From a virus, in the IMG/VR virus record IMGVR_UViG_3300048903_000061, positions 1 to 20,008 of that record: a stretch of DNA of 20,008 nucleotides; one strand, written 5' to 3'. A program made the position numbers and the translations under genes. Below, in pieces: positions 1,472 through 20,008 of this stretch; position 1 is the stretch's first letter; each line of letters begins with the position of its first letter. The notes under the pieces are model-generated. The model did no database searches, was not told the DNA's origin, and was given only the letters and a program-made list of their open reading frames with translations.

Positions 1472-3706
1472 TTACATTCTTCCATAAAAGAACAAGCCAT
1501 TTTGTTGATTGATGCCGACGCCTTGGTCGCCATAAAATGTAGTCGCTGTTGCTCCGGTCACTGCATATTCAAGCGCCTGGAAGAAATGAAAACCTAAACC
1601 CAAACCTATGGCTTCACCGATACACGTTGCAAATGTTGCCTGGTTCACCTGACTTGTCGTGCCTGAATAATTCAGAGCAGTATCAAACCCAACTCCAATG
1701 GAGCCGCCGCCAGTGCCGCTGACCGGACAATAGAACCGGGCGCCAAACGTATCTTCGCCAAGCCCACACACGTAGCTCGCTCGCATGTTGGCGCTACCAT
1801 TGGATGACCGCCAGGCAGCGGTGGCATAAGTCCACGAGTCGGTACTGTCCTTGGTCAACGACGCCACATCTATGCGATTATAGGCATTCCATACACCGAA
1901 AAATCCCGGTGTTCCGCCGGCATTGACGCCCCCGAATATCCAATCGAGTTGCGACGACGCATTGCTGCGCGTGGTGCCGACATAGGTGCCGCGCGAAGCC
2001 GCCGGCCCGTTGGTGATCGCGGCATTGTTGAGCAGAATGCCGTTGACCATTGTTAGCGCGGTGCCGGCAGATCGCGCCGTGTCGCTGGTCCAATCGGGGC
2101 CATGTCCTAGTCGGATCGTGCCCGCATCATTCCACACGAACCAATCGTTGACCTTTGATACGCCGATGGCAGCGGGGCTTTTGGTGGTGTCGGTGGTGGC
2201 AACGCTCAATTCCGTGAACGTTGTTGGCGTCATGGTGGTGCCGTTATAGATCGGCACCTGATCACCAACATATGGCGTGTAATAGATCGTCGTCTTTGCC
2301 GATTGCGTCGTGACCATCACCGGTGTGGCGGTCTGCAGCGTCAGCCGGCCTTGCGGCGGGACGGGGGTAGCGGTGCCACCAGCCACCGCATTTGCCTTGA
2401 TCTGTCCTGCAGTCGTTCTGTCCCATGTCACCGTCGCAGTGTCGGTGAGCACGCGCTCGCTGGTCAGTGTCGCGTCAGCCGTCGACGTGACGTATTCCGC
2501 GCCGATCGGCGCCGCGCCGATGTCGCTCAACACTGTCGCCGGCGCGACACCCTGGATCGTGGTTGCCGTCACCCAACGGGCATACTGCCCTGATGTGGGC
2601 GTACCGGAATTGCTGACATTGCCGCCGCTGCCGGTGGCGGTTAGATTGCCGCCCGAAAACGATAGCCCGGTTGAAACGTTGACAGCGGCCCAACTGTCGA
2701 CGCCGTTGCGATAGTAGATCGTGTTGGTGCCGGCGAGCGCTTCCAGCGCCGCCAGATCATTGGCCAGCGCCAGCGTCGGATTGCCAGCTACGCCGTTGCC
2801 GTTGCTGACCGTGATGCCGGCCGCCGGGCCGGTGATGGTGCGGCCGGTGAAGGTGTCGGCCGCCGTCTGCGTCAGCAGACCGTTGGTGTTGTAGGCAGCA
2901 AGCGCGGTAAGCGTGGCATCTTGTGCTTGGAATGGGCCGCCGGTGACATAACCTTGTGCTTTGACAAATGCAGTCGTGGCGATCGAAGTATCGCTGTCAG
3001 CCGTGGCCGGCGTCGGCGCCTGCGGATCGCCGGTGAATACCGGGCTGGCGAGTGGTGCCAAGCCCGCCGTGCTAACCGTATTGGTCAGATTACCGCCGCT
3101 GAACGAAAGCCCGGTTGAGACAACAACCGGCGACCAAACATTGCTGGCAGACCGATAGAAGATTGTGTTTGTGCCAGTCAGCGCGGCAATTGCGGTCAGA
3201 TCAGCATCGAGTGGCTGATAGGTTGCCGTTGCGGTTGCGGTAGTCAGATAGCCTTGCGCCTGCACATAGGCGGTGGTGGCGATCGAGGTGTCGTTATCTG
3301 CGGTCGCCGGTGTCGGTGCTTTTGGATCGCCGGTGAAGGTTGGCGAAGCCAGCGGCGCCCCCCCAATGTCGGAAAGCACTGTCGCCGGCGCCACTCCGGC
3401 AATGGTCGTAGCCGTCACCCAACGGGCATACTGCCCTGATGTGGGCGTACCGGAATTGCTGACATTGCCGCCGCCGGCGGTCGTGCTGGCCTTGGCCTCG
3501 CCAGGCGTCGAGAAGTCCCAGGTTATTGACGCCGTGTTGGTCAGCACCCGCTCGGCGGTCAGCGTCGGATCGGCAGTTGCAGTGATATACTCCGCACTGG
3601 TGGGAGCGCCACCGCCGCTGCCGCCGGTCGACGTGATCCCGAGCGCGTTTCTTGCGGTGTAGGGATCACGGGCGGCGTCGAAATCACGCCGCCACGGGAC
3701 ATCCAT
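1472..3706 (-). CDS. Large modular tail fibre protein
   Basis: This encodes 744 residues. The ATG overlaps the TGA of the upstream gene by one base (TGATG). The first roughly 440 residues are Thr/Ala/Ser-rich and built from four module types, each present twice in diverged form: an [18 protein letters not shown] unit, an [19 protein letters not shown] unit, a [17 protein letters not shown] unit followed by a T-S-I-A-T-T-A stretch, and an L-x-G-T-N-T-I-x-Y-R unit ending [13 protein letters not shown]. Such repeats are characteristic of trimeric fibre shafts. The last roughly 270 residues (from [19 protein letters not shown] onward) form a beta-rich aromatic domain ending in a short aromatic tail (NGLFFYGRM). 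I recall this domain from the C-termini of other phage fibre-like proteins, where it probably forms the distal, receptor-facing part. Fibre assignment is firm. The precise fold and receptor are not known. Confidence 0.8.
2565..2628 (-). repeat. 64-bp exact direct repeat inside the fibre gene, copy B
   Basis: This segment is identical base for base to 3411-3474. It encodes the [18 protein letters not shown] module of the fibre shaft. The flanking sequence has diverged, so identity is confined to this block, which suggests recent exchange or strong constraint. Confidence 0.9.
3411..3474 (-). repeat. 64-bp exact direct repeat inside the fibre gene, copy A
   Basis: This is the partner of 2565-2628 in the same orientation, with 846 bp between the two starts. 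Recombination between the copies would delete 846 bp (282 codons) in frame, shortening the fibre shaft without a frameshift. Confidence 0.9.
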
Positions 3707-5214: not shown

Positions 5215-5474
5215 CAATTCGGCTCCCGCGCCGCCTTAACCGCAGCTTGCAAATCGAGAAACTTCCGGGTGGCTTCTGGCGTCGTCGTTCGGATTTCCTC
5301 GCCGTCCTTGACCAGCACAACTGAGCCGCTGCGATTGCCGAGCATGTGTTGGAGTAATTGCGGAGTGTGATAGATCACCACCAACTCTTGGCCGCTGTCG
5401 AGAATGGCCTGTTGCCGCTCGGTCAATGGTAGAACCCCCATCACCTCGCCGTTACCGTCGTAAATCTTGAACAT
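5214..5474 (-). CDS. Small conserved-looking virion-cluster protein, function unknown
   Basis: This encodes 86 residues from the ATG at 5474. The ATG overlaps the adaptor's TGA (TGATG), and the stop overlaps the next gene's ATG in the same way, so it is translationally linked on both sides. The sequence begins MFKIYDGNGEVMGVLPLT and continues with a helical region (ERQQAILDSG), a strand pair (LVVIYHT, SVVLVKDGEEIR) and a charged C-terminal helix (EATRKFLDLQAAVKAAREP). It is soluble, without membrane or export features. The place between adaptor and putative head-closure protein suggests a connector or assembly role, but I do not recognise a family. Confidence 0.65.
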   Translation of the reverse strand: MFKIYDGNGEVMGVLPLTERQQAILDSGQELVVIYHTPQLLQHMLGNRSGSVVLVKDGEEIRTTTPEATRKFLDLQAAVKAAREPN

Positions 5475-6142
5475 CAAAAATAGTCCGCGGTTCGTACCGA
5501 GGGCGAGGTCGCGCCGGTGGTGAGCGCGGATAGCTGGATCAGTTCGGCAAATTTCTCGTCGCGCAATTGCTTGTGCGCGATTGCAGCCTCGCCGTTGCGG
5601 GCAAGGATGAACAGTTCGGTCAGCGCGCCTTCAAGGTACAGGTCGGGATGATCGCTGATCAGCCAGTTAGTACCATTATCGCCATTCTGGGTGCCGACAA
5701 TGCTGGGGATCTTCTGGTAGTAGTGGAATTCGTAGATGCCGTCCGCATTGTCGCGCGGGCGAGTGGTGAATATATCGCCGTCGATCGTGAACACCTTGGG
5801 GTTGCCGTGATCCTGCTCGATCCACGTCGATCGCAGATAGGCAGGGTGGACGTAGTCCAACTCCACCGACGGCGTTCTGCCGGTCCACAGCACCGTGCGC
5901 CAGAGCAGATAGTCATCCGGCACGAATGTCGAGCCCGGCATGATGACAAAGAACGGCGAGGACAAGGTGATGTCATCGGTCGTGAGCACAGCCATTGCTT
6001 CCTGCTGCCGGGTACGCAGCCGGCGATTGGCCACCGCCTCAAAACTGGTAACAGCGCGAGCGTAATTAGCGGCAAACCGCGAATGAAACAGCGAGCCGCT
6101 GAGCTCGGTCTTGAGCGAGCCGTAATTATTGATGATCGGCAT
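5474..6142 (-). CDS. Head-to-tail adaptor protein
   Basis: This encodes 222 residues. The pattern matches the adaptor proteins of podoviruses, which bind beneath the portal as a ring of twelve and extend the DNA channel. An N-terminal helical segment with Arg-rich residues (EAVANRRLRTRQQEAMAVL) is followed by a beta domain with an SPFFVIMPGSTFVPDDYLL strand, LDYVHPAYLRSTWIEQ, then PKVFTIDGDIFTTRP and YEFHYYQKIP. The diagnostic stretch is NWLISDHPDLYLEGALTELF, closely like the 'NWLL..PD.YLYGAL.E' signature of this family, followed by a C-terminal helix. An AAGG ribosome site lies ahead of the ATG. The 5' end overlaps the upstream small gene by 17 nt, and the stop overlaps the next start. Confidence 0.8.
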   Translation of the reverse strand: MPIINNYGSLKTELSGSLFHSRFAANYARAVTSFEAVANRRLRTRQQEAMAVLTTDDITLSSPFFVIMPGSTFVPDDYLLWRTVLWTGRTPSVELDYVHPAYLRSTWIEQDHGNPKVFTIDGDIFTTRPRDNADGIYEFHYYQKIPSIVGTQNGDNGTNWLISDHPDLYLEGALTELFILARNGEAAIAHKQLRDEKFAELIQLSALTTGATSPSVRTADYF

Positions 6143-6458
6143 TAGGCACTACCTTCTTTGGCCGGCCTGGTCCGCGTTTCACTGGCGGCGCGGTCAGGAC
6201 TGCGATCTGTTCCTCCAACGGCGGCGCCGGCGGCCCGGCATAGGCAAACGCGGTGAACTTGGGCGCCTCAACAAACATATTGGGTTCAGTCTTGATCTCG
6301 ACCCGGAAGGTGCGGTTGTTCTTGGCCTTGCCGATCATGTACGGATCGTCCACCGCCACCGGCACACCAATTGGAAATTCAATCCCGCACCATTGCACGG
6401 CTGGGGAACAGCCGTCTTCGCCGTCCCCCAGCCAGGTGAGGTAAACCGGATCGGTCAT
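6126..6458 (-). CDS. Small protein with AT-hook-like C-terminus
   Basis: This encodes 110 residues from the ATG at 6458, four bases after the stop of the upstream gene. An in-frame TTG at 6470 would add four residues, but it has no good ribosome site. The body is a compact beta-type sequence (VYLTWLGDGEDG, VQWCGIEFPIGVPVAVDDP, FRVEIKT), then a Pro-rich linker, and near the end the basic motif KRGPGRPKK. The core RGPGRPKK has the Gly-Arg-Pro centre of AT-hooks that sit in the DNA minor groove. It precedes the adaptor gene with a 17-nt overlap. The role is unknown. A DNA-contacting head or connector component, or a packaging-related protein, is possible. The AT-hook reading is from the motif alone and could be a chance basic tail. 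Confidence 0.7.
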   Translation of the reverse strand: MTDPVYLTWLGDGEDGCSPAVQWCGIEFPIGVPVAVDDPYMIGKAKNNRTFRVEIKTEPNMFVEAPKFTAFAYAGPPAPPLEEQIAVLTAPPVKRGPGRPKKVVPNADHQ

Positions 6459-6462
6459 CGGA

Positions 6463-7689
6463 TCATCCAATGTCGGCCGTTACGGGCAGTCCAGTCGTGT
6501 CGTCCACATTTCCGCTGATGGTTACCGGATTGGTCAGGTTATGAATAAAGATGTAGTTCTGCGCGAGTTGTGATTTCTGAATGCGGTTGTTGGTGATGGT
6601 GACATCCTGCGCGACGTTGGCATTGATGCTCTGGCACAGGATGCCATAACCCAGTTCCGAGCCAACGTGCGCGGCATCGAACAGGCACCGATTGTTATCG
6701 ATCACCACGCCAGAAAAACCGCCCCCTTCGGTCTGCAGGATGATGCAACTGGTGTCCCAGCTCACGATCGTGTTGTGCCGGATGATCAGGGACGTAAACC
6801 CGCCCGCGCCCTGAATGCCGTCAATATGCGATCCAGGGCCGGTGATGGAAAACAGTCCGTGAATGTAGTTGTCGTGAATGTTCATCCCGGTATCGCCGAT
6901 GACGATGCCGTTGACGTAGCCGCTGATGTCACAAAACCTAATCTCGATATTGGGGGCGAAGTCCGGCGAGATACCATTGGCCCCGCCAATCCCGGTCAAT
7001 AGGCACCGCTCGACCAGGCACCCCGACAAGGCCGCACCAACCGTGCTGATGGCGGCGCTGTCCTGACTGTTGATGATGCAATCTCGTATTATAACGTTGG
7101 GATGTCGGATAATGACCATGCCATTGTCGATCTGCCGCTTCTCGACAATCTGTCCGGCCGACGAAGTGTTGAAATTTCCGGTTGTGGTGGTGAACACTGT
7201 GCCCGCTGCGGGTCCGGTGTTGCTGGCGTTGGGCCAAGTGCCAGCGCTGCTGGTGTCCAGAGCGATGCTCTGGATATCCCGCCGCTGCACGACGTAGCGA
7301 ACGATCACCAGCGCAGAGCCGGCATTAGCCGGCGTTCCAGCCTGGTCATATTTCAGGGTTATGGAGGTCGGCCGCGCCAGCGGCAGCGACGACGGCATGG
7401 TCAGGGGTACCTTGACCACGCCCAGCGGGCCGATCGCCGTGCCCGCCGTGTAGGCCGATGGATTGGTGCCGCTGAAGTCGGACTGACCGATGACGATGTT
7501 GTTCTGCGTTCCGGCATTGAATGCCGTCGTGGTGTAGACGGTGATGTCGAGGACAACAGCATGTGGCGGCAACCCCCCGGCGAAGACGGTCGCCGGGGAA
7601 TTGTACGCCAGCCGGCTAGTGATGACCTGTGTGGCCTCGCGCTGGGCGTCCTGAGACGGGGTGTTGCTGGCGAAAAGCGTCGTGGCCAT
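6463..7689 (-). CDS. Capsid-proximal domain fused to a right-handed beta-helix
   Basis: This encodes 408 residues in two parts. Residues 1-135 align along their whole length with the 133-residue product of the gene just upstream: both have N-terminal PSQD, a GGLP turn, TTAFNA or QTAFNA, AIGPLGV, a PLAR/PLSR turn and a closing VRYVVQ/VRFVVP strand. After a Ser/Thr-rich linker, residues about 190-400 form a parallel beta-helix, visible as repeating short strands with Asn/Asp/Ile turns (GMVIIRHPNVIIRDCIINS, NIEIRFCDISGYVNGIVIG, MNIHDNYIHGLF, LIIRHNTIVSW, VVIDNNRCLFDA, VTITNNRIQKS). Such helices occur in pectate-lyase-like and tailspike proteins that bind or cleave polysaccharide. No catalytic residues can be assigned. 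Position two genes after the capsid gene suggests that the N-terminal domain anchors it to the virion. A GAGG ribosome site precedes the ATG. Confidence 0.75.
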   Translation of the reverse strand: MATTLFASNTPSQDAQREATQVITSRLAYNSPATVFAGGLPPHAVVLDITVYTTTAFNAGTQNNIVIGQSDFSGTNPSAYTAGTAIGPLGVVKVPLTMPSSLPLARPTSITLKYDQAGTPANAGSALVIVRYVVQRRDIQSIALDTSSAGTWPNASNTGPAAGTVFTTTTGNFNTSSAGQIVEKRQIDNGMVIIRHPNVIIRDCIINSQDSAAISTVGAALSGCLVERCLLTGIGGANGISPDFAPNIEIRFCDISGYVNGIVIGDTGMNIHDNYIHGLFSITGPGSHIDGIQGAGGFTSLIIRHNTIVSWDTSCIILQTEGGGFSGVVIDNNRCLFDAAHVGSELGYGILCQSINANVAQDVTITNNRIQKSQLAQNYIFIHNLTNPVTISGNVDDTTGLPVTADIG

Positions 7690-7714
7690 GATTGCCTCGC
7701 CCCAGGGGTATTGC

Positions 7715-8116
7715 TTACGGAACCACGAACCGAACCGAGAGCAGCCCGGTGCCGGCCGTGGCGGCGGTGCCGGTCTGCGTGTAGGACGCCGTCACCGTGG
7801 TTGCCCGTGACAGCGGAATGGCCGTTGTCGGCAAGGCTGGAGCCGCAACACCGAGCGGGCCGATCGCCTGCGCCGACACATAGGCAGTCGTAGAGGTGCC
7901 GGTGGGATCGGTAAACCCGACATTGAGGTTGTTAGTGGTCACCGCATTGAACGCGGTCTGAGTGTGGAAGGTAATGCCGGTGATCGCAGCATTGGCCGGC
8001 AGTCCGCCGACATTGATTGTCGTCGGGCTGTCGAAATTGATCCGGGCCAGCATGACCTGTTCAACACGATAGCCCATGTCCTGGGAAGGAACCGCAGTTT
8101 GGAGATTGGCAACCAT
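7715..8116 (-). CDS. Putative capsid decoration protein (stand-alone domain)
   Basis: This encodes 133 residues, almost entirely predicted beta, with conserved Thr/Ala/Gly-rich strands and no membrane or export signal. It follows the major capsid gene by 16 bases and has a strong ribosome site (AAGGAAAGGAAC ahead of the ATG), so high expression is expected. This is the usual place for head-decoration or minor capsid proteins. It is paralogous to the first 135 residues of the next gene, which indicates a tandem duplication. Decoration function is inferred from location, size, all-beta character and strong translation signal. No known decoration family is recognised, and a tail or spike base domain is an alternative. 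Confidence 0.7.
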   Translation of the reverse strand: MVANLQTAVPSQDMGYRVEQVMLARINFDSPTTINVGGLPANAAITGITFHTQTAFNAVTTNNLNVGFTDPTGTSTTAYVSAQAIGPLGVAAPALPTTAIPLSRATTVTASYTQTGTAATAGTGLLSVRFVVP

Positions 8117-8132: not shown

Positions 8133-9311
8133 TTAATCCGAAGCCGAGGCGAAGAAGCCGGTAACGACGCCCCATTGCTTCAGGGCGGTGCCAGCCTTGG
8201 GATGGAGTTTGTACATTTTCGCAACCCCATAGGCCGCCTCGATGCCGACGCCTTTGATGAATTGATAATCATCCTCCTGCCGGAAGGTAGGCTTCGCCAT
8301 CTGCGCATAGGCAATGGCCGCCGCCTGCTGGCCGCAGAGGAAGACCGGCTCGACCCTGGCACTAGCCGCGCCCGCCAATAGCAGATTGCCACCCGAAGGG
8401 ACGCCCCACGGGCCGGGATTTGCCGTCGTTCCCACAAAGCGAGAAATTTCCGGCACCAGGCGGACGATCACGCCGTCGTAGATCTGATCCCCGTCTTGAA
8501 ACAGCGGATTGTCGGGCGCACCATTGACCTGCCGGCCTTCTCTGGGCCGGGCATCCTTGTTCACCACCGCCAGATCAAGCTTAAGATCACGGAACGAACT
8601 CAGACCGGCGAAGCAGACATAATACTCGTAACCGTCGCGGGTTTTGTAGGGCCGAATGCGCGGGTCGGCATTCATCGCCACCCGCTTCATCAACGAGAGA
8701 CTGGCGGCGGTGAATTTGTCCGCGGTGGTGTCGACGTTGGACAGCGAAGTGACGAAGTTGCCGGCCGACAAGTTGCTGACCGCAGCGCCGAACAGGATGC
8801 GGTCGTTGTTGTCGGTCTGCCAGGTGTTGCGCTGCGCGACGGTGGCCAGGTCGAACTGGATGCCGTTAACACGGGTGCCGGCGGTCGGTTGGATTGCCGA
8901 TGGAAGGGCCATAAATGCCGCGATGATCTCGTCGCGGGTTACCTCCTGCAGCCAGTCCGAAAGTAGCGGCTTGGCCTCGCCGAAGGTGTCGGCGCTGTCC
9001 TTCTGCATTTCCGACTTCTTGGTGACCACGGCATTACGGGCCCATTCGACCCAGACGCGCATGCCGTAATCGTCGATCTCGTCCTCGAAACCAACCAACG
9101 GTCCGGTGGAAACGCCCTGCCCTCGCAGCCGAGTGACCAGCGGAATGTTGATCTGCTCGCCGCCGCTCTTGAGCTCCATGCGCCGGCGAATGATGCTGTT
9201 GATGTCCTCGCCCATGTAGGCCGAGAACATATTCTCCCTGACCCATTCACGATTGATCTGCTGCGTGTATTTGACCAACTTGTTGTTGGCTTGAACGGTG
9301 GAAACGGCCAT
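8133..9311 (-). CDS. Major capsid protein, N4 gp56-like family
   Basis: This encodes 392 residues and builds the icosahedral shell. It fits the N4 gp56 / Phage_capsid_3 type: an N-terminal helical arm (KYTQQINREWVRENMFSAYM), then RMELKSGGEQINIPLVTRLR with GQGVSTGPLVGFEDEIDDYG, the beta-type VWVEWARNAVVTK, and a long helix beginning EMQKDSADTFGEAKPLLSDW. Later parts (RDGYEYYVCFAGLSSFRDLK, DQIYDGVIVRLVPEI, LLLAGAASARVEPVFLCGQQ) match the family's expected HK97-fold core. Length is normal. It lies after the scaffold-like gene. The ATG is preceded by an AAAGGA site nine bases away, and the start is embedded in inverted repeats described separately. Family identification is from the sequence pattern and supported by neighbours. 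Confidence 0.88.
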   Translation of the reverse strand: MAVSTVQANNKLVKYTQQINREWVRENMFSAYMGEDINSIIRRRMELKSGGEQINIPLVTRLRGQGVSTGPLVGFEDEIDDYGMRVWVEWARNAVVTKKSEMQKDSADTFGEAKPLLSDWLQEVTRDEIIAAFMALPSAIQPTAGTRVNGIQFDLATVAQRNTWQTDNNDRILFGAAVSNLSAGNFVTSLSNVDTTADKFTAASLSLMKRVAMNADPRIRPYKTRDGYEYYVCFAGLSSFRDLKLDLAVVNKDARPREGRQVNGAPDNPLFQDGDQIYDGVIVRLVPEISRFVGTTANPGPWGVPSGGNLLLAGAASARVEPVFLCGQQAAAIAYAQMAKPTFRQEDDYQFIKGVGIEAAYGVAKMYKLHPKAGTALKQWGVVTGFFASASD

Positions 9312-15453: not shown

Positions 15454-15460
15454 TGCCTCC
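15454..15460 (-). promoter_or_regulatory. Strong ribosome site overlapping the giant gene's stop
   Basis: On the minus strand the stop TAG of the giant gene runs directly into AGGAGG-style sequence (TAGGAGGCAACA then ATG). It is a near-consensus site with good spacing. It fixes the start at 15450 and implies more protein from that gene than from its neighbours. Confidence 0.8.
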
Positions 15461-18400
15461 TAATAACTCTTGTTGCCGATGATCACGCGCCGTGACGGCC
15501 GGCGAATGGCATCGTAGCCCAGCTGCCGGGACAGCTCGTTCGGGCTTTGGTCGATCGCGGGGACTTCCGGTGCTTCGTAGTCTCCCGGCTGCGTGATGTC
15601 CCGCATGCGCGACTGCCCCAGCGCGATCAGCGCCGGATCGTTGAGCATCCTTTGCCAGTTGGCATTGAGCCGCAGTTGGCCACTGTCGACCATATCCATC
15701 AGAGTGGGTGCTGGGTCTTGCGCATTGCGTATTGCTTGCTTGATCCCGCCCTCAAGGCCCCTGTAGCGGCCGGGATAATCCGGGGCTGTTACCTTGGGCC
15801 AGCGGCCGATCCTGGGATCGCCCCTGCCCGGTTGCGGCATGTGCGCCAGCACCGTGCCCGGCTCGTCCGGCACGATGACTTCCGGGCCTTCCTCGCCGAC
15901 GAGATAAGGCTTGCCTTTTTTCACCGGGCCGCCTTCAGCGCGGGCCTCAACCGGCTCGGCCTGCGGCGTAGCTGCAACGGCCGGCGATGATACGTCCGGC
16001 GAGGTGGCAACATCGGAGCCGATACCGCGGCCCGGATTTGCGGTCACGTAGTTGGTGGCGACAAATTTGCCCGCGCTCGTGTCATTCCATCCCTTGCCGA
16101 AATTGCCGACCGCGATGTCGAACTGGTTCAGGTCAGGATTTGCATTCCCCCTGAACTCGCCGCCAGTGTCGTCGACGCGGCCCATGACATTGTTGAGCGT
16201 GTAGGTCTTGCCGTCGATCGGGCTGGTGTAGGTGATGTTGCCGATAAACATCGTCTGCCCGAACTGGCTGGGATGGCCGGCAAGTGAAACGACATCGGCT
16301 CGACCGCTTCGGATGTCATCGAGGGTGGTCAGTGCATTTGCTCTTGACCCGATCATCGGGCCTTCCGTGCCCTTCGCACCCGAAGCACCGGGCGCATAGA
16401 ACGTGAAGATTTTGCTGCCGACGACGCTGCGCCCAGGTTGCCCGCCCATTGAGCCGCCCTCTCTGGCAAGTTCAATGGCGGCGATCTCGTCGCGCGATGA
16501 TCCGCGCACGCCGCGCGCTTCCGCGGTGCTGATGGGATTGAGTTGTGACAGCATGCTGAGCAGCGAGCTGGGCAACGAGGCTTGCTCGGTGTCAGCCCGA
16601 TCGGTGTCAGCAACCCGGAACGGCTGATCCAACGCCCCTTGCCGGCCGGGTGCGTAGACCGGCGCGGGCGGGCCCTGTGCCGGATGTGCGGCCGGTTGGT
16701 AGCCCTGCATTGCCTGATCAATAGCTTCAGCAATCTTGCTTTGGACCTTTGACCACATATTGATCCCAAACACCGTATAGTTGGGGCCATAACCCATCGC
16801 GGTCGCGGTCTTGATAGCCGTATTCAACATTGCGGCCCTGGCCATGGGAGCGGGAACCCCAGCCGCCATCAATGCTGCCCTTCCTGTCGCTCCCTTCGCT
16901 TCGGCTTGCTCCCTGGTGGTTTGGGGTCCTATCCCCTTTATGGCCTGGGCGGCGATTGCCTCTATTGCGCGATTTAACATCATGGGGTCCGCGCGGCCCC
17001 GCGCCGGCGGTGTGAAGGATGTCGGCGCTGCTGGCTCATCTGTTGGCGCGTCGGGCGGCAAATTGGTTGGGGCGGGCGGCGGGATATCGGCCGGCGGGCG
17101 GGGCGGGGCGGGCTGCTGAGCCTCCTGCGGGGGTGGCGCGACAGCACCCTCGCGCGGGAGCGGACCCGGCCTTGGCAACGGCACTTGAGTTTGCTGCTGC
17201 CCCGGTATCAGCCCGCGAGCGGCAGCCTCTTGTCGGTTGCGCGCATCTATTGCGCGCTGGTCCTGCTGCTCCTGCGCGCTCGGTCGGTTGCCGCCAGCGC
17301 CACGCGCGTCGCTCAACTCGATGTGAGGTTCATCGAAAATTCGGCCGTTGCGAACGCCCAATGTTTGAAGCCCAAACTCACGAGCATGGGCGCGTACATA
17401 ATCCCGCGCTCGACCGTGTTGAAAATCGATGGCTCGGCCATGACCGTGATTGGAATTACCGGGCCGGGCTGCTGGGCCAAGGCGACCGCCTTGATAGCGC
17501 GTATAGACACTTTCTTGCGACGTGCGCGGGTCCATCAGATGTTCATGAGCTTCGCCGCGGTGCGCCGGACGATATCCGCTGCTAGCGGTCAATTCATCGC
17601 GGACATATTGCGGCGTGCGCGGGTCGGCGAGCAGGCGATTGATATTCGCAATTAAGCGCGAGTCCAAGTCGCTCACATTGTTGTCACCGGTGCGAAAATT
17701 CGGCTCGATCCCGGCTTGTCGGGCGGTGCGGAAGTCAACGCCAGGGCGGCCTTGCGGATAATCGGTGCGGCCACTGTCGCGATAATAGGGATTGCTTCTG
17801 TTGTCGGTTTCCGACCTAGAATAGATACCATTTTGTCCAATGACGGCACCGGGCTGGGCGGGAATGTTGCCTGGCGGGGTGATCCCCGGCCGATCTGTAG
17901 TCGGGGTGCTACGATCTCCCTCTGGTTCGGGCGCGTCGTCATCGTGCTGCGGCTGGTCGCCTGGCGGTTGGGCCTCGGGCTGCTGCTCGCGCGGGCCGAT
18001 CGGCGCAGTCGGCTGCTGCGAGAATGGAGCCTGCGGCGCTTGCGGCGGCAGCATATCAACCAAACTGGGCTGGCGGGATTGCTCTTGTTGCTGCTCTCGT
18101 GCGGCCTGCTGCTGCGCCTCTTGCACGGCCTGTTGCACGGCCTGTTGCACTTCCGGCGAAATCGGTAGCGCTGGTGGCGGCGCGTCCTGCTGTTGCTCGA
18201 CTGGTGCGGTCGGCTGCTGTTGCCCCGACGGGGCTTCCTGCTGCTGCTGTGCTGCTTCCTGTTGCTGCTGTGCCTGTTGTTGTTCCTGCTGCTGTTGCTG
18301 TGCGGGCGCCTCTGGCTGTTGCTGCGGGGCTTCCTGCTGTTGCTGCGGCGACTGCACTTCCGGCGCTGGTGGTTGCACTTCCGGAGCAGGTGGCGGCGCT

Positions 18401-19968
18401 ACAACCTCGACATTCTGGACTTGTTGCTGGGTTGGGTCGTGAACCAACGGGCCGACATTCAAGCCGGTAACACCAAAAACGGGCGACCCTCGCGACGGCC
18501 CGGCGACAAGGCTATCGATCCCCAATTGGGTGGCGAGACTATCGGGGCCCCGGCCCTGCTCGCCGCGCGCCTGCATGTCGAATGCGGTGGTAGGCATCCC
18601 AAACGGCATGCCGGTAGGTGAGTTGATATCGACCCAATTATTGGGATTGAGCGCGGTGTAGATGCTGCTGAGCAATCCGGGTTCGCGCCCGCTGGTGGTG
18701 GGCGGCCCCATATCGGCATAGGGCGAACCTTGGAAGTCGGTGACATCCGATGATGTTCGGTCGGATGTCTGACTGGGACCGAAGTCGGCATAGGGCGAGC
18801 CCTCATAGTCGGTGGTTGGCGTCTGCTGACTGCCGTACAGATCGCCGGCGATAATGTTTGCCGCAGTGCCGTAATCGGTCGTCTCGGCTGCGCGCTGGCC
18901 GGCATCGATGATGGCCGCCGCATCAGGACCGCCCTCGTCGGTGCCACGGCTCGCCGCGTAATCGCTGCCGATGCCGCCCCTACCGCCTCCACCTCCACCT
19001 CCACCTCCACCTCCACCTCCACCTCCCTCGTCGCCGCCCTTGCTGCCGGCGGCTGCCGCAACCGACTGGGTCTGTGACGGAGCATCCGCATCCGGTGTGG
19101 CCGGGGCGCCTTGCGAGGAAGGCTCGGCATCCTGCAACCCGCCGGGATCGGCATCGGGCAAGCTGTCGGACTTGGATGGCGCCTCGGGCTCGGCATCCGG
19201 CGCGGCTTCGGGCGCAGAGGGCGCAGAGGGCGCAGCGCTTCTGCCGCCCGCGTCGTCATTACCCTTGCTGCTGCCGTAGAAGCCGCCGCCCGGAACGCTG
19301 CCTACCGTGCTGGTCGTGCCGGCGGGAGTATTGAAGCCACCGAAGCCGCCACGGCCGCCGCCGCCTCCGCCGCCGCCGCCACCGCCGCCGCCGTAACTGC
19401 CGCCGCCTCCACCGCCTCCGCCACCGCCGCCGTAGCCGTCGCCGTAGAACCCGCCGCCGCCACCGCCACCGCCGAGAGGCCCGCCGCCACTGTAGGTGCC
19501 GAAGGTGCCGCCCAACCCGCCGCCGGTGCCGGCTGCGCTGTAAGTGCCGGCCGAACCCCAGTCGCCGCCGCCCGTGGTCACGCCAGGATTGGGGCCGGCA
19601 ACATCCACGAACGTCGGATTGGGCGCGTTCATGCCGCCGTAACTGGTGGCCTGGAAACTGCCCCAGTCGCCGCCGCCACCGGCTCCCGTGCCGGCCGTCG
19701 AGGCATCATAGGCGGTACCCGCCCAGCCGCTGAGATCGCCGGATGCATTGAAGCCGGAGGCATCGAACGAGCCGGAACTGCCCCAGTCGCCACCGCCGGT
19801 GGTGGCGCCGCTAAAGCCGCCGTCAAACCCGCCACTGAAGCCGCCGCCACTGTCGCCGGTGAAGCCGCCGCCGCCGCTGTCGCCGCCGCTCGAGCCGCCC
19901 CAGCATAGCCGCAGATTTCGCGGCAACCATTCATCCGGCTGCGCGCGATCCCACGGGCGGTGGTTCAT
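15460..19968 (-). CDS. Giant low-complexity protein with M15-type peptidase and 3D-like domain
   Basis: This encodes about 1502 residues from the ATG at 19968, which has an AGGA site ten bases upstream. The frame stays open to the window's right edge, and a TTG at 19998 would add ten residues. Residues about 25-330 are Gly-rich with TGGGDWGS-type repeats. About 510-670 is Gln/Pro-rich. About 750-890 is an M15 peptidase (D-Ala-D-Ala peptidase/L-Ala-D-Glu endopeptidase type): SSGYRP, then SNHGHGRAID matching S-x-H-x-x-G-x-A-x-D, then DEPHIEL, giving likely zinc ligands His841, Asp848 and His882. After a helical region, about 1183-1300 resembles a 3D domain (GRVDDTGGEF, Asp1267, and FDIAVG, Asp1284). 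A VGEEGPEVIVP motif near 1355 recalls C-terminal motifs of tape-measure and tail lytic proteins. It probably degrades peptidoglycan, either carried in the virion for entry or as an endolysin. The Gly and Gln repeats argue for a virion protein. Confidence 0.75.
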   Translation of the reverse strand: MNHRPWDRAQPDEWLPRNLRLCWGGSSGGDSGGGGFTGDSGGGFSGGFDGGFSGATTGGGDWGSSGSFDASGFNASGDLSGWAGTAYDASTAGTGAGGGGDWGSFQATSYGGMNAPNPTFVDVAGPNPGVTTGGGDWGSAGTYSAAGTGGGLGGTFGTYSGGGPLGGGGGGGGFYGDGYGGGGGGGGGGGSYGGGGGGGGGGGGGRGGFGGFNTPAGTTSTVGSVPGGGFYGSSKGNDDAGGRSAAPSAPSAPEAAPDAEPEAPSKSDSLPDADPGGLQDAEPSSQGAPATPDADAPSQTQSVAAAAGSKGGDEGGGGGGGGGGGGGGGRGGIGSDYAASRGTDEGGPDAAAIIDAGQRAAETTDYGTAANIIAGDLYGSQQTPTTDYEGSPYADFGPSQTSDRTSSDVTDFQGSPYADMGPPTTSGREPGLLSSIYTALNPNNWVDINSPTGMPFGMPTTAFDMQARGEQGRGPDSLATQLGIDSLVAGPSRGSPVFGVTGLNVGPLVHDPTQQQVQNVEVVAPPPAPEVQPPAPEVQSPQQQQEAPQQQPEAPAQQQQQEQQQAQQQQEAAQQQQEAPSGQQQPTAPVEQQQDAPPPALPISPEVQQAVQQAVQEAQQQAAREQQQEQSRQPSLVDMLPPQAPQAPFSQQPTAPIGPREQQPEAQPPGDQPQHDDDAPEPEGDRSTPTTDRPGITPPGNIPAQPGAVIGQNGIYSRSETDNRSNPYYRDSGRTDYPQGRPGVDFRTARQAGIEPNFRTGDNNVSDLDSRLIANINRLLADPRTPQYVRDELTASSGYRPAHRGEAHEHLMDPRTSQESVYTRYQGGRLGPAARPGNSNHGHGRAIDFQHGRARDYVRAHAREFGLQTLGVRNGRIFDEPHIELSDARGAGGNRPSAQEQQDQRAIDARNRQEAAARGLIPGQQQTQVPLPRPGPLPREGAVAPPPQEAQQPAPPRPPADIPPPAPTNLPPDAPTDEPAAPTSFTPPARGRADPMMLNRAIEAIAAQAIKGIGPQTTREQAEAKGATGRAALMAAGVPAPMARAAMLNTAIKTATAMGYGPNYTVFGINMWSKVQSKIAEAIDQAMQGYQPAAHPAQGPPAPVYAPGRQGALDQPFRVADTDRADTEQASLPSSLLSMLSQLNPISTAEARGVRGSSRDEIAAIELAREGGSMGGQPGRSVVGSKIFTFYAPGASGAKGTEGPMIGSRANALTTLDDIRSGRADVVSLAGHPSQFGQTMFIGNITYTSPIDGKTYTLNNVMGRVDDTGGEFRGNANPDLNQFDIAVGNFGKGWNDTSAGKFVATNYVTANPGRGIGSDVATSPDVSSPAVAATPQAEPVEARAEGGPVKKGKPYLVGEEGPEVIVPDEPGTVLAHMPQPGRGDPRIGRWPKVTAPDYPGRYRGLEGGIKQAIRNAQDPAPTLMDMVDSGQLRLNANWQRMLNDPALIALGQSRMRDITQPGDYEAPEVPAIDQSPNELSRQLGYDAIRRPSRRVIIGNKSY
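18200..18360 (-). repeat. Gln-codon repeat tract in the giant gene
   Basis: On the minus strand this stretch is dominated by CAG and CAA codons in runs (encoding QQQQQEQQQAQQQQEAAQQQ and similar, with Ala, Pro and Glu spacers). It is a degenerate triplet-rich tract likely to be disordered. Mixed codons argue against simple slippage, so it appears selected as protein. Confidence 0.75.
18986..19026 (-). repeat. Hexanucleotide tandem repeat coding for polyglycine
   Basis: The six-base unit CCTCCA (plus strand; TGGAGG on the coding strand) is repeated nearly seven times without error over 41 bases, giving about 14 consecutive glycines near residues 314-328. Since the unit is six bases, copy changes add or remove two glycines and keep the frame. 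Exact identity of all copies suggests recent expansion. Confidence 0.9.
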
Positions 19969-20008
19969 GTCAGGATTTTCCTGCGTCGCGTGCCGCAACT
20001 TTCCCAGC

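Follow-up and report, generated by a model that had tools for sequence, protein, structure and literature searches.

In the 20,008-nt stretch of viral DNA analyzed here (IMG/VR record IMGVR_UViG_3300048903_000061, positions 1 to 20,008; hereafter the window), the major capsid gene is followed by two paralogous genes, P0001 and P0002, whose products have a cement-type predicted fold, and the second continues into a domain predicted to be a parallel beta-helix. The explanation that we favor, with moderate confidence, is that P0002 is an accessory head appendage whose helix binds, and perhaps cleaves, host exopolysaccharide. This explanation draws on the paralogy, the predicted cement fold, the synteny with the capsid gene, the optional nature of the second copy, the mobility of the helix, and the presence of helix relatives in polysaccharide loci, all of which were established by computation. 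The relevant features of the window are as follows:

8133–9311, minus strand: major capsid protein, 392 aa, HK97 type, Phage_capsid_3 (PF13252, phrog_334)
7715–8116, minus strand: P0001, 133 aa, predicted jelly-roll capsid cement protein (deco1), from model matches and synteny
7285–7689, minus strand: P0002 residues 1–135, second cement-type domain (deco2), from paralogy with P0001 and the model
7234–7284, minus strand: P0002 residues ∼136–152, linker of low confidence (pLDDT <50 over residues 138–168)
6466–7233, minus strand: P0002 residues ∼153–408, right-handed parallel beta-helix module, from structural matches and homologs
6126–6470, minus strand: 114-aa protein with no family match, placed by synteny
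5474–6142, minus strand: SU10-type head-tail adaptor, 222 aa (PF24175, E = 1e-18)
1472–3706: tail-fiber gene, with probably a further one at 1–1062

The capsid gene upstream of P0001 matches PF13252 (E = 5e-37; 128 bits against a curated cut-off of 23), and its product matches the major head protein family phrog_334 (E = 1e-49). Among solved structures, the nearest relative is the capsid protein of cyanophage Pam1 (7eel_A, E = 9e-52), followed by 9vye and that of GP4 (8h89_A, E = 4e-5); judged by sequence, the protein is of the HK97 type and related to the capsid proteins of Pam1 and N4 gp56. The intergenic gaps are short, 16 bp from the capsid gene to P0001 and 25 bp from P0001 to P0002, and the placement of the pair directly after the major capsid gene, as proposed in the preliminary description of this locus, is thus upheld. 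P0002 is encoded between the genes for the cement protein and the adaptor, outside the tail-fiber part of the genome (tail fiber at 1472–3706). Contigs of three further assemblies (L001, L002, and L003) carry the same fused gene, intact and with 100% identity, so the fusion is not an assembly artifact; these contigs and the window represent one virus population, the only one from which the fusion is known. Elsewhere in the window, a 1512-aa Gly/Gln/Pro-rich open reading frame (15460–19998, minus strand) has no Pfam match, and includes a stretch that by eye resembles an M15-type peptidase (HGHGRAIDF … EPHIEL).

P0001 and residues 1–135 of P0002 are, by sequence comparison, paralogs: BLASTP aligns them with 57 of 124 residues identical (46%; 66% positive; E = 1e-31), and they share the landmarks PSQD, GGLP, TAFNA, AIGPLGV, PLSR/PLAR, and VRFVV/VRYVV. 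The coordinates, paralogy, and landmarks given for the two reading frames in the preliminary description are all borne out. The AlphaFold model of P0001 has eight strands (mean pLDDT 78.8), and its four best PDB matches are all phage-head chains: Pam1 7eel_H (Z 10.6), KHP40 7dou and KHP30 7dn2 (both Z 10.2), and GP4 8h89_J (Z 10.0), with the next matches at Z 8.8 and down; the BPP-1 cement protein (3j4u_H) is found at Z 8.0. The P0002 model is of moderate confidence overall (mean pLDDT 68.2), with the blocks of its N-domain mostly at 70–89 and their strands in the same order as in the P0001 model. This N-domain matches 8h89_J (E = 7e-4), 7eel_H (E = 1e-3), and 7dn2 (E = 7e-3), as well as free-standing viral proteins of 128–143 aa in BFVD. 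As far as the models allow, the two N-domains therefore agree in PDB neighbors and strand order, which speaks against the non-superposing N-domains that the earlier proposal had named as refuting it, and its view of both as capsid-decorating domains accords with these models.

According to the GP4 paper (PMC9698820), the cement proteins of the podophages Pam1, GP4, and KHP30/KHP40 are alike in topology and sit as trimers on threefold or quasi-threefold axes. In the models, both N-domains are two-sheet jelly-rolls within the 120–155 aa of Pam1/GP4/KHP30-type cement proteins, and a profile of the family alignment (A1, 31 sequences) matches one solved cement protein, that of KHP30 (7dn2), weakly (E = 0.041). 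Both are accordingly modeled as predicted capsid cement proteins, and since the capsid proteins of Pam1 and GP4 are also relatives of the one encoded in the window, cement anchor and lattice belong together. Neither Ig-like domains for the two models nor a tailspike head-binding domain for the two N-domains occur among the matches listed. Neither protein has a PHROGs match, P0002 has only a sub-threshold match in Pfam, and P0001, P0002, and the helix alone find no match among 50,697 phage records.

Scans of IMG/VR and GTDB genomes with this family yield more than 100 relatives, mostly of 130–145 aa. Where a capsid gene of the window type was detected (96 loci), a family member lies at most 700 bp from it in 89 (median gap 16.5 bp), and two of the seven exceptions are the window itself, read on its opposite strand; the P0001 family is thus encoded beside HK97-type major capsid genes like those of Pam1 and GP4. 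The second copy is less constant among relatives that share the gene order. In L008, whose cement protein is 93% identical to P0001, the plain cement gene is followed directly by the 114-aa gene, and in L092 directly by the adaptor gene with no second cement copy, while L090 and L091 encode a bare second copy without the helix. The second cement copy is for these reasons an optional add-on, and the question raised earlier, whether the pair stays beside N4 gp56-like capsids, can be answered with yes for the plain copy but not for its partner. In a maximum-likelihood tree, the P0002 N-domain groups with the free-standing deco2 proteins of L090 and L091 (support 93/88, marginally below the strict threshold). 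Deco1, which is always kept, and deco2, which is optional, thus probably stem from an older duplication, after which deco2 probably acquired the helix in some lines or lost it in others.

A scan of 127 loci, with patterns that favor the canonical YTQTGTAA/FNAxTTN motifs and may miss diverged fusions such as P0002, yielded no second example of a cement domain extended at length beyond its C-terminus. Two BFVD proteins, A0A3Q9R6H7 (371 aa) and A0A248SJJ0 (354 aa), pair a cement-like part of ∼125 residues with ∼220 more residues; extended cement forms may therefore exist, and these two are possibly other cement fusions with different cargo. Two helix-free copies of the family occur near each other in L034, L035, L061, L031, and L106, and in L034 and L061 the second of them is strongly diverged (YAGQNSNATAG in place of YTQTGTAATAG). 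Members directly after a gp56-like capsid gene in a further set of loci (L036:5631–6164, L028:7851–8381, L063:2483–3034, L049:7860–8396, L055, and L067) have a signal-peptide-like hydrophobic N-terminus (e.g., MLKKFLAGALFALLALAFAVPASALS), an odd start for a presumed cytoplasmic head coat protein. The family also draws an annotation as "Rz-like spanin" (phrog_20969, matched by 22 of the 31 members), which we judge to be a misannotation, given that the members are encoded beside the capsid gene and are predicted to fold like cement proteins.

Phage beta-helix enzymes usually sit on tailspikes, and P0002 could accordingly be an ordinary tailspike attached at the tail or neck, with a cement-like jelly-roll re-used as a trimerizing base on the adaptor or tail. 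The gene for P0002 is located a short distance upstream of that for the head-tail adaptor, the P0001 model also resembles jelly-rolls of the R4C baseplate, the 7-7-1 tail fiber, and the lambda tail tip (Z 7.0–8.7), some BFVD matches of the P0002 model are named tail fiber, and an optional gene would suit a spike as well. We nevertheless regard this placement as unlikely: the N-domain is paralogous to a protein fixed beside the capsid gene, its best matches are head cement proteins, the genome has separate tail-fiber genes (1472–3706 and probably 1–1062), and a related helix in another phage, L004, is also carried by a protein encoded shortly after the capsid gene. A head location, which the preliminary description had also preferred for the fused protein, is on homology and synteny the best reading of P0002. 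The same description assumed that less of the fused copy is produced; this finds no backing in the predicted Shine-Dalgarno pairing, which is no weaker for that copy (−7.1 vs. −5.9 kcal/mol).

The helix part of P0002 comprises ∼255 residues (starting at about 147–153 and ending at 408), including an N-terminal cap common to its homologs, so that the parallel beta-helix recognized earlier stands in fold, while its length had been underestimated at about 210 residues. Its model superposes on the alginate lyase PsAly (6kfn) at Z 23.1 (rmsd 2.5, 231 residues aligned, 15% identity), followed by the Dettilon tailspike (6f7d, Z 21.9), the Vibrio polysaccharide lyase RbmB (9ozl, Z 20.9), the pneumococcal adhesin PfbA (Z 20.3), and other tailspikes (Z 18–20). 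These matches point to a pectate-lyase-fold beta-helix of the carbohydrate-enzyme type. PF13229 (Beta_helix) is matched by five of seven scanned homologs (best E = 2e-16), the window copy not being among them. The polar residues that are invariant in the phage helices and their rhizobial relatives include Y275, H277, H288, and D290, within the motifs NYIH and H-x-D-G-I, and no Lys or Arg is invariant across the same set. The catalytic residues of PsAly are Tyr184 and Lys221 (PMC6796002). This Tyr/Lys pair is not evident among the invariant residues, and, with no invariant Lys or Arg, the lyase chemistry of PsAly could not be assigned to the P0002 helix.

Homologs of the helix occur in phages on anchors other than the cement domain. 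The L004 helix is 86% identical to that of P0002 in protein and 87% in DNA, and it follows an unrelated N-terminal anchor of 90 residues encoded two genes after a capsid gene, whose product has no similarity to the capsid protein of the window. The DNA match between P0002 and L004 starts at the domain edge, where the linker ends, and stops near the stop codon. L139 encodes a capsid protein with 97% identity to the L004 one, and there the anchor stands alone as a 91-aa protein. In L005 and L087–L089, a helix ∼71% identical to that of P0002 comes after a run of glycines that ends a third anchor part, encoded close to the terminase gene, and a helix-free relative of this anchor is found in L144; a helix-free relative thus exists for each of the three anchors. 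These sequences mark the helix as a mobile module that two further phage lineages also carry. A recent recombination accident without a role could likewise leave a fusion confined to one virus population and joined by an exchange that the 87% DNA identity to L004 marks as not ancient. Such an origin is very improbable in our estimation, given a reading frame that is intact and identical in three further assemblies, breakpoints at a domain edge and a stop codon, and the joining of the same module to other C-termini in two other lineages.

Remote relatives of the helix (28–35% identity) are secreted-type proteins on Pararhizobium and Sinorhizobium megaplasmids, where the neighboring genes encode Wzz, CpsD, O-antigen ligase, and glycosyltransferase. 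Among seven genomes searched, two Bradyrhizobium genomes also carry distant relatives, as parts of larger proteins. In several proteins of Bradyrhizobium genomes (L130–L135), a P0002-like helix is followed by repeated beta-rich units, Ig-like by eye; some are at least 660–740 aa as read, and several lie near each other on one contig. The packaging and capsid genes additionally have prophage-like relatives in Rhizobiales genomes, which together with the rhizobial helix relatives points to an alphaproteobacterial host, and the uncultured phage of the window is probably rhizobial. A head-borne helix might instead give stability or non-specific stickiness, toward soil particles or another phage protein, with no recognition of host glycan; consistent with this, no complete lyase signature is kept between the phage and rhizobial helices, and pectate-lyase folds occur as adhesins too (e.g., PfbA). 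This alternative seems to us quite improbable, since relatives of the helix reside in host polysaccharide clusters, host and phage proteins alike retain the His-x-Asp-Gly and NYIH motifs, and the module has been captured repeatedly, in three phage lineages, which suggests that an interaction with the host is under selection.

Under the favored explanation, P0001 would be the main cement protein, forming jelly-roll trimers on the threefold or quasi-threefold axes of a Pam1-like HK97 shell, and P0002 would be a paralog whose C-terminus gained a mobile pectate-lyase-fold helix. Its N-domain could occupy some of the cement positions, either in homotrimers or in trimers shared with P0001, and a flexible linker would let the helix project from the head. 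We infer that P0002 is assembled into the virion, is displayed outward, and binds glycan, with possible cleavage; the displayed helix would engage the exopolysaccharide of a rhizobial-type host and may assist the initial encounter or penetration of the slime, ahead of tail engagement. In BPP-1 the C-terminus of the cement protein is surface-exposed, and a 22-residue C-terminal fusion gave infectious phage according to an unpublished note of the authors (PMC3863775). In KHP30, by contrast, the extended C-terminus lies at the bottom of the trimer, toward the shell (PMC9698820). Given these two geometries, outward display of the helix is plausible, not certain, and on a KHP30-like arrangement it may need the linker predicted to be disordered (residues 138–168, pLDDT <50).

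The cement proteins of Pam1, GP4, KHP30/KHP40, and BPP-1 (Bbp16) resemble P0001 in predicted fold, size, and a related HK97 capsid neighbor, but these are described as single proteins without enzyme-like cargo, whereas the window encodes a paralog pair, one member with a C-terminal beta-helix. T4 Hoc, T5 pb10, N4 gp17, and phi29 gp8.5 are likewise optional head decorations thought to aid host contact, partly via glycans (PMC7602432); their cargo consists of Ig-like domains or a helical spike, in contrast to the pectate-lyase-fold helix predicted for P0002. The nearest solved relatives of P0001 are the cement proteins of Pam1, GP4, and KHP30, while N4's own decoration protein, gp17, differs in being described as Ig-like (PMC7602432). 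In lactococcal 936 phages, a glycan-binding module is carried by a repeating virion protein, as predicted for P0002, although there the carbohydrate-binding modules are on the major tail protein and the neck passage structure rather than the head (PMC6669499). Flexible capsid fibers have been described for phage 7-7-1 of Agrobacterium (PMC12796354).

The tailspike depolymerases of Dettilon, HK620, and LKA1 share the general right-handed beta-helix type with P0002, which differs in having no tail-anchor domain recognized among the matches listed, a small helix (∼255 residues), a gene in the head module, and a cement-type anchor. PsAly (6kfn) and RbmB are among the closest solved folds (Z 20–23), yet are only 11–15% identical. 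Beta-helix glycan enzymes are textbook parts of tailspikes. Optional head proteins for host contact and glycan modules on the tail or neck are already known; in the literature searched, whose coverage is incomplete, with many subscription papers outside it, neither a pectate-lyase-fold helix on a cement protein, as suggested here by sequence, nor any other beta-helix joined to such a protein was found.

A broader proposal, which we put forward tentatively as a little short of an even chance, is that a mobile, host-derived polysaccharide-processing helix has been added C-terminally to small virion proteins in at least three phage lineages, turning one cement paralog into a head depolymerase or lectin at many icosahedral sites. 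The available loci provide a comparison set, with cement alone, a bare second cement copy, a second copy that bears the helix, and two further anchors to which this helix is attached, that makes the question directly testable. A head lattice protein with a helix would, if confirmed, be a natural scaffold for capsid display. As a paralog of the predicted head coat protein carries a helix of the sugar-handling type, it is probably the head of this phage that contacts or trims host slime, a task that mostly falls to the tail, and if this is true, the phage could work on capsule or slime via dozens of head-borne modules.
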